Shown here piece by piece: positions 44,384 to 49,853 of a stretch of 64,000 nucleotides of DNA; positions within the stretch are counted from its first letter, which is position 1; each line of letters starts with the position of its first letter. The translations under genes and the position numbers were made by a program. The notes under the pieces are model-generated. The model was given only the letters and a program-made list of their open reading frames with translations, ran no database searches and was not told the origin of the DNA. Source of the stretch: Endozoicomonas sp. G2_2 (GTDB lineage Bacteria > Pseudomonadota > Gammaproteobacteria > Nevskiales > Salinisphaeraceae); assembly GCF_017744135.1 (NCBI RefSeq), contig NZ_JAGHQU010000005.1:186001-250000 (forward strand). The letters run 5' to 3'.

Positions 44384-44501
44384 GGTCTGGAATCTCCCGG
44401 TCGGTCGGCGCGAGCCGACGGACTGTCTACTCTCGTTACCGCCTATTCTAGGCACTTCGCCTTTCGGGCGCATTAACGCACGACGCCGCTGGGGCCTTGG
44501 T

Positions 44502-44507
44502 TACAAT
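44502..44507 (+). promoter_or_regulatory. Predicted -10 element directly before uvrD
   Basis: TACAAT followed by GCGCGCC and then the ATG at 44515. Initiation would fall at the start codon; no ribosome site is seen, so uvrD mRNA may be leaderless. The -35 is weak. Confidence 0.4.
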
Positions 44508-44514
44508 GCGCGCC

Positions 44515-46674
44515 ATGGACGACGTATCGACGATTCTCGAACCCCTGAACGAAGCCCAGCGCGAAGCGGTGGGTGCGCCGCCCGGGCACATGCGCGTGCT
44601 TGCCGGCGCCGGCTCCGGCAAGACCCGTGTGCTCATTCATCGCATTGCCTGGCTGATTGGCGTGGAAGGCGTGGCCCCGCAATCGATTCTGGCGGTGACC
44701 TTCACCAACAAGGCCGCCGGCGAAATGCGCGCGCGCCTGGAGCCGATGCTGCGGGTGCCGGCGCGGGCGATGTGGGTCGGTACCTTCCACGGCATCGCGC
44801 ATCGGCTGCTGCGCCTGCACTACAAGGAAGCGAAGCTGCCGCAGGCGTTCCAGATCATCGATGCCGACGATCAGTACCGGCTCGTGCGCCGCACGCTCAA
44901 GAATCTGGAAATGGACGAGCAGCGCTGGCCGCCGCGCCAGATGCAGGGCTTCATCAACAGCTGCAAGGAAGCTGCCGAGCGCCCGCGCGACCTGGCCGAT
45001 ACCGGCGACTATGCTAGAAGTCAGATGATTCGGGTCTATCAGGCCTACGAGAACGCGCGCGAGGCCGCCGGCCTGGTCGATTTCCCGGAGCTGCTGCTGC
45101 GCGCCTTCGAGACCTGCCGCGACAACGCGGATCTGCTGGCGCACTATCGCCGCCGCTTCAGTCATATCCTGGTCGACGAATTCCAGGACACCAACGCCCT
45201 GCAGTACGCCTGGATACGGCTGTTGGCCGGCACCAACGGCAAGGTGTTCATCGTCGGCGACGACGACCAGTCGATCTATTCCTGGCGCGGCGCGCGGGTG
45301 GACAACATCCTGCGCTTCGAAGACGACTTCAAGGACACGGCCACGGTTCGCCTGGAGCAGAACTATCGCTCCACCGGCACCATCCTCGGCGCGGCGAACG
45401 GCCTGATCGGCCACAATCTCTCGCGTCTGGGCAAGGAGCTGTGGACGGCCGGCAGCGACGGTGAGCCGATCGATGTCTACGCCGCGTTCAACGAATACGA
45501 CGAAGCCCAGCACGTCGTCACGCGCATTCAGAACTGGATCGCCGAGGGCGGCAAACGTTCGGATATCGCCATTCTCTATCGTTCCAACGCCCAGTCGCGG
45601 GTGCTCGAGGAGCGGCTGATCGCGGCCGAGATCTCCTACCGCATCTATGGCGGCCAGAAGTTCTTCGAGCGCGCCGAGATCAAGGACGCGCTGGCCTATA
45701 TGCGCCTGCTGCAATCGCGCGCCGACGACGCCGCCTTCGAGCGCATCGTGAACACGCCGACGCGCGGCATCGGTGCGACCACGGTCGACAAGATCCGCAG
45801 CCATGCCCGCGCCGGCGCGATGAGCCTGTGGCAGGCGGCCTTCGATCTGGCAGAGAACGGCCTGCCCGCCAGGGCCGGCAAGATGGTGATGGCGTTCATC
45901 GAGCTTATCGACACGCTCGACGCCGAGATCGAGGGCATGGCCCTGCATGAGATTGCCGAGAAGGTGATCGTCGCCACCGATCTCAAGGCCCACCACGGCA
46001 AGGGCGGCGATGAAAAGGCCGAAGGGCGCAAGGAAAACCTCGACGAACTGGTCTCGGCCGCGCGCGCCTATACGGCGGACGACGACGAAACCATGGACGA
46101 GATCACCCAGTTCTTGGCCTATGCCTCGCTGGAGGCCGGCGAAAACCAGGCCGGCGAATGGGATGAATCCGTGCAGCTGATGACCTTGCATTCGGCCAAG
46201 GGGCTGGAGTTTCCGCTGGTGTTCATGGTCGGTCTCGAGGAAGGCCTGTTTCCGCATCAGCGCTCGGTCGACGACGACAACGGTCTCGAGGAAGAACGCC
46301 GGCTCTGCTACGTGGGCATGACCCGCGCGATGGAGAAGCTGCATATCTCCCACGCCGAGGTACGGCGCCTGCACGGCAGCGAAAACCTCTGCGCGCCGTC
46401 GCGCTTTCTGCGCGAGATTCCGGCCGATTATCTGCGCGAGGTGCGTCCGCAGGCTGGGATTAGCCAGCCCGTGTTCCGGCCCGGCAGCATCGCCAAGTCC
46501 GAACAGCGGGCCGCCGGGTTGTCGCTGGGCCAGCGGGTGGCGCACAAGAAATTCGGTCAGGGCACCGTGCTGGCGTTCGAGGGCGACGGCGCGCGGGCGC
46601 GTATTCAGGTGAATTTCGACGGCGTGGGCAGCAAGTGGCTTATCGCCGGGTATGCCAAACTCGATCCGGCATGA
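44515..46674 (+). CDS. uvrD: DNA helicase II UvrD
   Basis: 719 residues, the usual UvrD length. SF1A helicase motifs in order: Q-motif NEAQREAV, motif I AGAGSGKT, Ia FTNKAAGEM, II VDEFQDTN, III GDDDQSIYSWRGA, IV-V region MTLHSAKGLEF, and VI VGMTRAMEKL. The C-terminal Tudor-like RNA polymerase-binding segment (LGQRVAHKKFGQGTVL) is present. UvrD works in nucleotide-excision and mismatch repair. ATG 44515 is preferred over the upstream ATG 44506 and TTG 44497 because the helicase domain begins soon after. Confidence 0.95.
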   Translation: MDDVSTILEPLNEAQREAVGAPPGHMRVLAGAGSGKTRVLIHRIAWLIGVEGVAPQSILAVTFTNKAAGEMRARLEPMLRVPARAMWVGTFHGIAHRLLRLHYKEAKLPQAFQIIDADDQYRLVRRTLKNLEMDEQRWPPRQMQGFINSCKEAAERPRDLADTGDYARSQMIRVYQAYENAREAAGLVDFPELLLRAFETCRDNADLLAHYRRRFSHILVDEFQDTNALQYAWIRLLAGTNGKVFIVGDDDQSIYSWRGARVDNILRFEDDFKDTATVRLEQNYRSTGTILGAANGLIGHNLSRLGKELWTAGSDGEPIDVYAAFNEYDEAQHVVTRIQNWIAEGGKRSDIAILYRSNAQSRVLEERLIAAEISYRIYGGQKFFERAEIKDALAYMRLLQSRADDAAFERIVNTPTRGIGATTVDKIRSHARAGAMSLWQAAFDLAENGLPARAGKMVMAFIELIDTLDAEIEGMALHEIAEKVIVATDLKAHHGKGGDEKAEGRKENLDELVSAARAYTADDDETMDEITQFLAYASLEAGENQAGEWDESVQLMTLHSAKGLEFPLVFMVGLEEGLFPHQRSVDDDNGLEEERRLCYVGMTRAMEKLHISHAEVRRLHGSENLCAPSRFLREIPADYLREVRPQAGISQPVFRPGSIAKSEQRAAGLSLGQRVAHKKFGQGTVLAFEGDGARARIQVNFDGVGSKWLIAGYAKLDPA

Positions 46675-46688
46675 TCTGAATCGTGTTA

Positions 46689-46848
46689 TTAACCTGGCAG
46701 GGAATACCTTCATGCCGGGTTAACAGCGCGAATGCGCCTCGGCGCATTCGCCACGGCTACCGGCCGCGAAGCCATTGAAGATAAAGAACGGACATGCCCC
46801 GGTCTTTATTTTCGGCGGCTTTGAAAACAGCCGATCTTTCAGCTGTTT
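46689..46848. other. Three hairpins in the uvrD-DUF3187 gap
   Basis: The 229 bp gap holds an 11 bp inverted repeat with one mismatch (TTAACCTGGCA / TGCCGGGTTAA, 46689-46723), a perfect 10 bp hairpin GCGAATGCGC-CTCG-GCGCATTCGC (46728-46751), and a 7 bp inverted repeat AAACAGC / GCTGTTT (46825-46848). No T-tract follows the first two. They may mark a small RNA, an attenuator or a degraded repeat. Confidence 0.5.
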
Positions 46849-46903
46849 GGGTGACGATTAATAAAAACGAACGCGCCGTACGGCGCACAGCCTTGGGGGC
46901 GAC

Positions 46904-47923
46904 ATGGGGTTACGTCGTGCAGGGAGATGGTACGGGTTGTCGGTGCTGGTCGGCGCGGTGGTGCTGACAGCGCCGGCATTTGCGCAGGATGACGATCGCC
47001 TTGCGCCACAGCCGCTGACCTTTTCGGATCAATCGCCGACGGTGAGCATCTACGGTCTGCCGCGCGCCGACGGCTATACGGTGGCGCAGCCGGGCGCATG
47101 GCATGCCGGGCTGCGTATCGACTACACCAGTCATTACACCGAACAGGAAAGCGGCAACGAATCCCTGCTGTTCGACGGCGAGACCACACGCGCGGCCCTG
47201 GTGTTCAGGCGCGGCTTTGCGGGGCGCTGGCAGGCCTCGGTGGAAATTCCCTTCGTCGATCACAGCGGCGGCTTCGCCGACGGTTTCATCGACGATTTTC
47301 ACGACGTCTTCGGCTTCGCCGACGGCGGCCGCTCGGGCGCGCCGGACGATCGCCAGACCTTTCGCTATCAGCGCGACGGCCGGCTGGCGCTGGATGTCAG
47401 CGATTCGCCTTCCGGCATCGGCGATGTTCGTCTGGGTTTGAAGAAGCGGCTGCCCGGCGTTGGCGACTGGGGCATGGCTGTCGCCGGTGAACTCAAGCTG
47501 CCCACCGGCGATGCCGATCGGCTGACCGGCAGCGGCGCGGCGGACGTGTCGCTCTGGGCCACGATCGGAAACAACCAGAGCGGGACATCACGCTGGCGCA
47601 TGCTGGCCGGCGCCGGTGGCCTCTATTCCGGCGAGGGCGACGTACTGGAACGACAGCGCGTACAGGAAGTGGCCTTTGGCTGGGCCACGCTTGGCTATGC
47701 GCTGACGCCGGCCTTCGTGGTCGAAGTCCAGGCCTATGCCCACAGTGCCTTCTACGAAGACACCGATATCGAGGCGCTGGACGGTACCGCGGTGGCTGGC
47801 GCACTGGGTTTCGACTGGCAGCTCACGCAGCAGTCGAGCCTGGATTTTGCGATTATCGAAGACCTGAATACCGGCGCCTCGCCGGATGTGAGTTTCATGC
47901 TGGGGCTGCGTCACGATTTCTGA
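46904..47923 (+). CDS. DUF3187 family outer-membrane-like protein
   Basis: 339 residues with a signal peptide ending VLTAPAFAQ. The body alternates like a beta-barrel and ends in LRHDF, a C-terminal Phe typical of outer-membrane proteins. The segment EIPFVDHSGGFADGFIDDFHDVFGFADGGR is a DUF3187 hallmark; function is unknown for the family. It is 27 bp before the receptor-channel gene in the same direction, so co-transcription is likely. Confidence 0.8.
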   Translation: MGLRRAGRWYGLSVLVGAVVLTAPAFAQDDDRLAPQPLTFSDQSPTVSIYGLPRADGYTVAQPGAWHAGLRIDYTSHYTEQESGNESLLFDGETTRAALVFRRGFAGRWQASVEIPFVDHSGGFADGFIDDFHDVFGFADGGRSGAPDDRQTFRYQRDGRLALDVSDSPSGIGDVRLGLKKRLPGVGDWGMAVAGELKLPTGDADRLTGSGAADVSLWATIGNNQSGTSRWRMLAGAGGLYSGEGDVLERQRVQEVAFGWATLGYALTPAFVVEVQAYAHSAFYEDTDIEALDGTAVAGALGFDWQLTQQSSLDFAIIEDLNTGASPDVSFMLGLRHDF

Positions 47924-47950
47924 CGCCGTACCCGTCATTAGGGGGAATAG

Positions 47951-49084
47951 ATGAAAGATCTCTTGTCGTTCAAGACGCTGACGACACTCGTGCTGTGTGC
48001 CTTGCTGGCCTTGATGGCCTCGCCGGCCTGGGCGCAGCAGGATGCCGACGACGCGGTCTCGGCAGCCATGCCGGCCAGCGAGCGCGGCGCCGATCTCATT
48101 GTCGGCACCAAGGCTGCGCCGCCTTTCGTGGTCGAGGACGAGGCCGGCGCATTCTCCGGTATCAGCATTCAGCTCTGGGAAGCGGTGGCCGATCGGCTCG
48201 GGGTGCCGTTCGAGTACGCGCCCAGCGACCTGAGCGGCCTGTTTACCGGGTTGGGCGACGGCACGCTCGATCTGTCGGTGGCCGCGCTTACCGTGACCGC
48301 GCCGCGCGAGGCCAATATCGATTTCTCCTACCCGTTCTATTCCACCGGGCTGGCGATCGCGGTCCCGGCGGGTGGCAGCGCGGTATGGGGCACGATCAGC
48401 CGTTTTTTCTCCTGGCAGTTCTTCACTGCCCTTGGCGCGCTGGCGCTCGTGCTGCTGGGCGTCGGCGTGGCCATCTGGTTCTTCGAGCGCCGATCCAACG
48501 CCGAGGAATTCGGCGGCACGACCGCACAGGGGCTGGGCAGCGGCTTCTGGTGGGCGGCGGTGACCATGACCACGGTGGGTTATGGCGACAAGGCACCCAG
48601 GACGTTCGGCGGCAAGGTCATCGGTCTGATCTGGATGTTCGCCGCGATCATCATCATCTCGAGCTTCACTGCGGCGATCGCCACGTCGTTGACCGTCGAT
48701 CGGCTGGCTTCCGGCATCAACGGCGTGCAGGATCTGGCCAACGCGCGGGTGGTGACGGTCAAGGGCTCCGCCGCGGCCGACTCGCTGAGCGAACGCGGCA
48801 TCGCTTTCACGACGCGCACCGAGCTGGAAGAAGGGCTGGAGGATCTGGCCGCCGACCGTGTCGATGCCGTGGTCTATGACGCGCCGCTGCTCAATTACCG
48901 CGTGCTCAACGACTACGCCGGCACGCTCGAAGTGCTGCCGTCCGTGTTTGACCGCCAGGATTACGCGTTCGCCCTGCCCCAGGGCAGCGATCTGCGCGAG
49001 CCCATCAATCGCGCGATTCTGGAATACCTCGCGGGCGACGAATGGCGCGCGACGCTGACGCAATACATGGGCAAGCAGCCCTAG
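47951..49084 (+). CDS. GluR0-like ligand-gated potassium channel
   Basis: 377 residues. A signal peptide (1-28) is followed by an SBP_bac_3 lobe (about 45-138), a first membrane helix (about 156-177), a pore segment with the potassium filter TTVGYGD (207-213), a second pore helix (about 222-245) whose SSFTAAIATSLT resembles the iGluR SYTANLAAF gate, and then the second ligand-binding lobe (about 250-375). This is the lobe-pore-lobe order of the cyanobacterial receptor GluR0. It should open a K+ path when a small ligand, probably an amino acid, binds outside. The arginine and acid that grip the amino-acid backbone are not certain from sequence alone. Confidence 0.87.
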   Translation: MKDLLSFKTLTTLVLCALLALMASPAWAQQDADDAVSAAMPASERGADLIVGTKAAPPFVVEDEAGAFSGISIQLWEAVADRLGVPFEYAPSDLSGLFTGLGDGTLDLSVAALTVTAPREANIDFSYPFYSTGLAIAVPAGGSAVWGTISRFFSWQFFTALGALALVLLGVGVAIWFFERRSNAEEFGGTTAQGLGSGFWWAAVTMTTVGYGDKAPRTFGGKVIGLIWMFAAIIIISSFTAAIATSLTVDRLASGINGVQDLANARVVTVKGSAAADSLSERGIAFTTRTELEEGLEDLAADRVDAVVYDAPLLNYRVLNDYAGTLEVLPSVFDRQDYAFALPQGSDLREPINRAILEYLAGDEWRATLTQYMGKQP

Positions 49085-49107
49085 CTGCGCGTTATCCGGA
49101 CGATCGT

Positions 49108-49132
49108 GCGGCGCCCCCGGCGCGGGCGCCGC
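49108..49132. terminator. GC hairpin between convergent genes, weak terminator
   Basis: GCGGCGCC / GGCGCCGC, 8 bp stem with a 9-base loop, between the receptor-channel gene and the SPOR gene. The following bases lack a proper T-tract. Confidence 0.4.
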
Positions 49133-49133
49133 G

Positions 49134-49853
49134 CTATTTCTTGGCCCGCATCACCAGGGTGTCGATCCGGTTCTCGCGCAGGCGCTTGAGCATGCGGTTG
49201 AGCTCGTCGCTGGAGCCGATGGTGTTGCTCTGCACGCGATAGACGGTCTTGCCCGAGGGCAGGTCGACCTGCACGATCCGCGCCGCCAGGCCCAGCAGGC
49301 CAAGCTCGGCCTTGCGCCGATCCGCGTCGGCGTGGGTCGAGAACGAGCCGGCCTGAATGATGTAGCTGCCCGGCTCCTCGACGCGGGGGGTGGTCGGCTG
49401 CGGCGTCTCGGTTTCTTCCGGGTCGGGCGGCGGTGCCGGCCCCGCGCCCGCGCTGGTGCCTTCCTCCGGATATTCCTCCTCCGGGATCACCACCTCGTAG
49501 TTCGGCAGCATCTTGTAGAAGGAGAAACGCGGTTCTTCCTCGGCCTTGGCGGGCTCGGCCGGCTGTTCTTGCGGCGCGCTTTCGGCGGACTTGTCGCTGC
49601 CGGTGACCTTGGGTGTGGCGATCTCGACCTGTTCACGCGCGAGCGTGCCGCCGGGGCGCGCAAAGACATAAAACACCGCGGCCACGGTCAGCCCGATGCA
49701 CAGCCCGCAGACCATCCATACCCAGCCCGGCGGGCCGCCGCCCTTGGCGCGCCGGCTCTTGGTCGGTTTGGCCGCCGGCTTGCTGCGCGTGGTCTTGCGC
49801 TTGCCGTTCTTCGACGAGGCGCTGCCCGGACGCGAGGAATAGTCTCGAGCCAT
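49134..49853 (-). CDS. SPOR-domain (FtsN-like) membrane protein
   Basis: 239 residues. Basic N-terminal tail (RKTTRSKPAAKPTKSRRAKGG), one membrane helix (about 43-65), a long Pro/Glu-rich periplasmic linker, and a C-terminal SPOR domain (about 163-238: YIIQAGSFSTHADADRRKAELGLLG to LRENRIDTLVMRAKK). SPOR domains bind glycan strands stripped of stem peptides at the division site, and this arrangement matches FtsN-like proteins. It lies downstream of argS, as in many gammaproteobacteria. Its ribosome site AGAGG sits inside the right-hand inverted end of the miniature element at 49855-50144. Confidence 0.88.
   Translation of the reverse strand: MARDYSSRPGSASSKNGKRKTTRSKPAAKPTKSRRAKGGGPPGWVWMVCGLCIGLTVAAVFYVFARPGGTLAREQVEIATPKVTGSDKSAESAPQEQPAEPAKAEEEPRFSFYKMLPNYEVVIPEEEYPEEGTSAGAGPAPPPDPEETETPQPTTPRVEEPGSYIIQAGSFSTHADADRRKAELGLLGLAARIVQVDLPSGKTVYRVQSNTIGSSDELNRMLKRLRENRIDTLVMRAKK

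Follow-up and report, generated by a model that had tools for sequence, protein, structure and literature searches.

A GluR0-type channel gene beside a DUF3187 gene in Salinisphaeraceae: probably neighbours, not one machine

In the genome of Endozoicomonas sp. G2_2, a member of the Salinisphaeraceae, a gene for a DUF3187 protein is directly followed by a gene for a potassium channel with ligand-binding lobes. Do the two products form one system across both membranes, or do their genes merely lie side by side? We addressed this question for the window, a stretch of 64,000 nucleotides (positions 186,001 to 250,000 of contig NZ_JAGHQU010000005.1), and for the corresponding genes in related and more distant genomes.

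The two proteins

The channel gene (47951..49084, forward strand) encodes 377 amino acids and was assigned to the GluR0 type (Group 1 prokaryotic ionotropic glutamate receptors, iGluRs) via profile matches, PDB sequence search, structure modeling and Foldseek. Its product has a signal-peptide-like N-terminus, as read by eye, and is ordered as SBP lobe, pore with TTVGYGD, SFTAAIAT helix and second lobe. SBP_bac_3 matched residues 49-374 and thereby spans around the pore (E 2.3e-23), Lig_chan matched residues 165-266 (E 1.3e-19) and Ion_trans_2 (PF07885) residues 178-247 (E 2.2e-11); NCBIfam profiles gave only matches below cut-off. Based on profiles and PDB sequence search, ligand-binding lobe 1 comprises residues 49-143 (48095..48379) and includes R119 (codon 48305-48307), and lobe 2 comprises residues 255-374 (48713..49072) and includes D310 (codon 48878-48880). 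The pore module of M1 helix, P loop and M2 helix (residues 155-253; 48413..48709) was placed using the Ion_trans_2 and Lig_chan matches and the modeled helices at residues 155-179, 191-206 and 219-253. It carries the K+ selectivity filter TTVGYGD (residues 207-213; 48569..48589) and, in the second pore helix, the gate-region SFTAAIATSLTV (residues 238-249; 48662..48697), which aligns with SYTANLAAFLTV of an AMPA receptor in the alignment to 9mrk. All features of the channel gene lie on the forward strand.

Columns invariant in all 51 aligned channels (the window channel and 50 of 80 named channel loci, picked for plausible ORF length and drawn from several phyla) include P58, F59, R119, D124, F125, T207 to D213 (TTVGYGD) and D310. 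R119 and D310 align with the same residues in 2pyy; we take them to be the carboxylate and the amino-group ligand, respectively, as in other iGluR and SBP proteins. 2pyy, the ligand-binding domain (LBD) of a bacterial ionotropic glutamate receptor homologue, was the top match of the PDB sequence search with both lobes (E 1e-31), followed by the SBP-type protein 4zv1 and then by AMPA and NMDA receptors; unlike the window channel, the solved 2pyy chain (228 residues) is without a pore. The channel model, built from 51 sequences, reached a mean pLDDT of 90.7 and a pTM of 0.77, and all 50 Foldseek matches listed for it were AMPA-receptor chains, the best being 8ayl_A (LBD-TMD, E 3.8e-23, TM 0.56, rmsd 6.3, 380 alignment columns with gaps). 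AMPA receptors resemble the window channel in their LBD-TMD fold and SYTANLAAF-type gate helix, whereas animal receptors of this type possess M4 and an N-terminal domain and have no GYG filter.

Group 1 prokaryotic iGluRs are defined, in the account of Ger et al. (2010, PMC2950845), by lobe-pore-lobe architecture plus a K+ filter. In the window channel, two transmembrane helices and a P loop lie between the S1 and S2 binding lobes, a K+-channel filter domain is present (Ion_trans_2 plus TTVGYGD), and the conserved arginine and aspartate that bind the alpha-amino acid are found (R119, D310). A preliminary description of the sequence had named a prokaryotic glutamate receptor channel from TTVGYGD and SFTAAIAT, and this is borne out by domains, PDB matches and model. 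Like GluR0 of Synechocystis and other Group 1 proteins, the window channel combines an SBP lobe, M1-P-M2 with a K+-type filter and an SBP lobe and has neither M4 nor an amino-terminal domain; it differs in that Synechocystis belongs to another phylum and that the window channel is known from sequence and model alone. It belongs, as an ordinary representative, to a known family present in many phyla.

Synechocystis GluR0 is reported to reside in the plasma membrane with both termini outside, to carry K+ and to rescue K+-uptake-deficient E. coli, and its deletion to cause faster shrinkage after a KCl upshock (PMC13099474). By analogy, the window channel probably senses amino acids in the periplasm and opens to K+ in response, allowing fast ionic or osmotic reactions. 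Four subunits would form a KcsA-like inner-membrane pore oriented inversely to KcsA, and the two-lobed SBP domain would face the periplasm. A glutamate- or glutamine-like amino acid would close the lobes via R119 and D310, lobe closure would pull the SFTAAIAT helix bundle open, and the resulting K+ flow would serve fast ionic or osmotic adjustment.

The DUF3187 gene (46904..47923, forward strand) encodes 339 amino acids. PF11383 matched residues 21-339 (E 9.2e-52, 176.6 bits compared with a curated cut-off of 24), and a search with NCBIfam profiles gave zero matches. Read by eye, the protein has a signal-peptide-like N-terminus and ends on phenylalanine. The structure model, of low confidence (pLDDT 50.5, pTM 0.49, only 4 sequences), contains 14 strands, 12 of them with at least 9 residues. 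Foldseek matches listed for this model were outer-membrane beta-barrels, e.g. FapF, the COG4313 channel (4rl8), NanC and porins. FapF, 4rl8 and NanC, although among the best matches, reached TM values of just 0.43-0.49 on the query at 10-15% identity for a model with a pLDDT near 50. The protein is likely a secreted, porin-like outer-membrane barrel, as far as this model can indicate; of the earlier label of a barrel-like DUF3187 gene, the family identity thus stands firmly while the barrel is plausible.

We know of no function for the PF11383 family. In Vibrio, a DUF3187 gene group is tabulated among genes associated with no infection by a phage (PMC12409351), which would suit a surface barrel. 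In the window's order, 69 of 85 genomes carry DUF3187, compared with 47 of 369 in a class sample (44 of these over the curated cut-off) and 31 of 398 in a phylum sample, making it a common, unstudied outer-membrane candidate.

The shared locus and its history in Salinisphaeraceae

Both genes run head to tail on the forward strand, and the channel ATG lies 27 bp past the DUF3187 stop; this distance had been given before and was confirmed from ORFs and sequence. The gap (47924..47950, forward strand) contains a Shine-Dalgarno-like AGGGGG ahead of the ATG. Conserved neighbours, as judged by synteny, are the uvrD helicase gene upstream (44497..46674, forward strand; PF00580/PF13361) and a SPOR-domain gene downstream (49134..49853, reverse strand; PF05036). 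A terminator-like hairpin after the channel gene and before the convergent SPOR gene (49106..49134, forward strand) was picked up by a consensus scan and is weak evidence, since 6 such sites were found in the 64-kb window compared with a shuffle mean of 2.4. A promoter scan found no promoter-like site between the two genes; as it was blank across all of 46500-49400, its silence between them tells little.

Among 17 genomes of the family, DUF3187 was found in 8 and a channel match at E below 1e-100 in 13. In all 8 DUF3187-bearing genomes, across two genera, the two genes are direct neighbours in the same orientation, and 30-246 bp separate the ends of their matches. Using the start codon judged likeliest, the gap is ca. 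19-27 bp in six of them, and in the other two it depends on the start chosen (44-77 bp in G001, 63 or 201 bp in G016).

Mapping the window's neighbours onto the relatives allowed us to follow the slot within the uvrD...SPOR...argS locus. The order uvrD-DUF3187-channel occurs in 8 of the 17 genomes, with SPOR and argS next in seven members of the window's genus; in G001, the SPOR gene was not found within the 6 kb read downstream. Four genomes (G004, G013, G014, G015) have uvrD-channel-SPOR-argS, and together with G003, which carries its channel away from the slot, they make up the 5 of 13 channel-bearing genomes without a DUF3187 match. Neither gene occupies the slot in five genomes: it is empty in G009 and G011 (uvrD-SPOR-argS), holds a transposase-like/two-component-like set in G005, and transporter-like genes in G002 and G003, these occupants being named by eye. 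Genome searches of G009, G011, G005 and G002 gave no channel match at E 1e-20, an absence that weighs less for the drafts G009 (87% complete) and G011 (81%). In the sister family, G384 shows uvrD-DUF3187-SPOR-argS and gave no channel match genome-wide at E 1e-20. The locus thus occurs in four states, and what lies between uvrD and SPOR is variable. In the window this slot extends over 46675-49133, and it is likewise seen in L226, L229 and L230; its contents range from nothing over channel, DUF3187 plus channel and transporter-like genes to the transposase-like/two-component-like set.

Trees were used to order these states. In the uvrD tree (18 rows, the G007 row comprising 417 residues as its gene is split between contigs), the seven Salinisphaera genomes lacking DUF3187 (G015, G013, G004, G014, G009, G005, G011) group together as a single clade (100/100), within which four retain the channel. 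DUF3187 was therefore most simply lost once in this clade, while four genomes kept the channel beyond that loss. In the DUF3187 tree (43 rows), G384 and the family sequences form one clade (100/98), so the position of DUF3187 next to uvrD is probably older than the family itself. The channel then probably arrived later than DUF3187, a reading based on one sister-family genome, G384, which may instead have lost its channel. In the channel tree (56 rows), 12 of 13 family channels fall into one clade (99/96). The G001 channel (L021), though beside DUF3187, tends to group with channels from Alteromonas and its relatives (97/76); a tree holding all 13 family channels together was not rejected (p-AU 0.467). 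If the G001 channel was gained separately, a repeat of the insertion next to DUF3187 would speak for a link, and such a second arrival would be the best evidence left for functional pairing.

Co-occurrence and linkage outside the family

In the class sample of 369 genomes, the channel was found in at least 15, all channel counts being lower bounds as scoring covered at most 5 candidates in each genome. At least 4 genomes carry both genes, namely two family members with adjacent genes, G179 with the genes on different contigs and G257 with ca. 480 kb or more between them. After removal of 3 family genomes, both genes occur in 2 of 366 genomes compared with 1.6 expected (p 0.49; channel counts again as lower bounds). 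The channel is present in 20 of the 85 genomes of the order sample and, outside the family, in 7 of 68. All 7 also carry DUF3187, with 6.3 expected (p 0.45), a value this high because DUF3187 is present in 61 of these 68 genomes. None of the 7 has the genes adjacent: six have them on different contigs, and in G443 they lie ca. 9.2 kb apart. We rejected G443 as a case of near-linkage given this distance, the opposite strands and the other genes in between; its genus-mates G444 and G445, both drafts for which a similar distance is possible, have the genes on different contigs. Outside the family, the genes are thus adjacent in 0 of 9 genomes found with both.

The same was seen from either gene's surroundings. 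Of 80 named channel loci, 3 have DUF3187 within their flanks (up to 5 kb), all from Salinisphaera or Salinisphaeraceae, and DUF3187 was near none of the 74 channel loci of other organisms, some of which have short flanks. Conversely, no channel ORF was picked in 20 DUF3187 regions from 18 genomes outside the family, using crude ORF picking that in one region (L177) also missed the DUF3187 ORF itself. DUF3187 elsewhere has varied neighbours in these regions, while in the window its neighbour is the channel. A general DUF3187-channel system was rejected on these grounds: chance-level co-occurrence, 0 of 74 channel loci, 0 of 20 DUF3187 regions and no adjacency outside the family. Linkage across lineages, which a functional pair needs, was found in one family only. 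The refuting outcome named in the preliminary description, a lack of co-occurrence in other genomes, was largely obtained: the genes adjoin in 8 of 8 DUF3187-bearing genomes within the family, but 5 of its 13 channel-bearing genomes gave no DUF3187 match, G384 gave no channel match, and outside the family adjacency is 0 of 9 and co-occurrence at chance level. Among the literature matches listed for Salinisphaera, glutamate receptor and potassium channel, Salinisphaera is unmentioned.

Other neighbours recur. Recurring channel neighbours were sought by clustering neighbours at 69 of the 80 loci, the other 11 giving no channel ORF under the same crude picking. The largest cluster covers 8 of 69 loci and is MscS-like, judged by one tested member (L088:6814-8112, a mechanosensitive channel of the MscS type, E 2e-16); DUF3187 is absent from the 25 clusters listed, as judged by their listed members. 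The MscS-type gene lies two to four genes downstream of the channel (L088, L106, L107, L111, L113, L118, L127, L155), in five Idiomarinaceae and in Alteromonas, a Nitrospinae and a gammaproteobacterial MAG. This is a small hint toward an ionic-response role, with five of the 8 loci from Idiomarinaceae alone. In case of DUF3187, genes of one cluster lie directly beside it in 5 of 20 regions (L166:6314-7141, L167, L169, L178, L180), and the tested member is DUF3943 (PF13084, E 1.8e-30). As a recurring companion of DUF3187, a DUF3943-type gene may have a better claim than the channel.

Neighbourhood or partnership

We hold with good confidence that the locus encodes a GluR0-type amino-acid-gated K+ channel and an independent DUF3187 barrel which became neighbours through insertion, possibly on one transcript, with neither needing the other. 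The product of 46904-47923 would be a probably porin-like outer-membrane barrel in its own right, and the two genes would be neighbours because the channel gene entered the conserved uvrD-argS locus with DUF3187, already present there, on one side and SPOR on the other. Since some relatives have just one of the two genes, these probably just lie side by side and do not encode one machine. The idea that an outer-membrane protein and a K+ channel jointly sense osmolarity or nutrients, as first put forward for this locus, is accordingly not supported: the genes are separable within the family and unlinked elsewhere. The partnership appears as a local, dissolvable neighbourhood, and coupled function is unlikely. 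Against independence stand the adjacency and strand conservation in 8 of 8 genomes and the mostly short gap, as in an operon.

The genes may be co-transcribed and co-regulated, with salt or envelope stress as a possible trigger, while their products are coupled neither physically nor functionally. Such co-transcription is compatible with the independent-neighbours reading, and we give it slightly less than an even chance. Salinisphaera live in salty habitats, and the shared strand, the 27-bp gap and the lack of a promoter-like site between the genes fit a common transcript, although the blank promoter scan carries little weight and the channel persists without DUF3187 in 5 family genomes. A different ligand for the channel is less probable. 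SBP_bac_3 domains bind varied ligands, so the ligand of the SBP domain could be a compound of another class than amino acids; alternatively, the channel could be a constitutive K+ leak. The reported rescue of K+-uptake-deficient E. coli by expression of GluR0 alone (PMC13099474) would fit such activity, but the invariance of R119 and D310 across 51 channels and their alignment with the same 2pyy residues make this alternative unlikely.

Further down stands a lineage-specific functional pair in which the barrel would admit the ligand or K+, or make contact with the channel through the periplasm, to which the channel would respond. It draws on same-strand adjacency in every DUF3187-bearing family genome of two genera, on the short gap in most of them, on two N-termini that look secreted by eye and on the possible independent channel arrival in G001. 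Four genomes with the channel but no DUF3187 at the same locus, G003 with the channel elsewhere, G384 with DUF3187 but no channel, the lack of adjacency in all 9 further genomes found to hold both genes and the 74 non-family channel loci lacking DUF3187 nearby make it improbable. A facultative two-membrane sensing pair in Salinisphaeraceae, whose barrel would feed an amino acid or K+ to the channel in salt shock while barrel-less clades use another porin, is very improbable.

In conclusion, a two-membrane system of this kind would be new if true, and the evidence points away from it. The GluR0-type channels, a family whose physiology is only starting to be understood, gain a member with a TTVGYGD filter, and the close relatives carrying both genes, either one or neither provide a natural series for testing the role of the neighbour.
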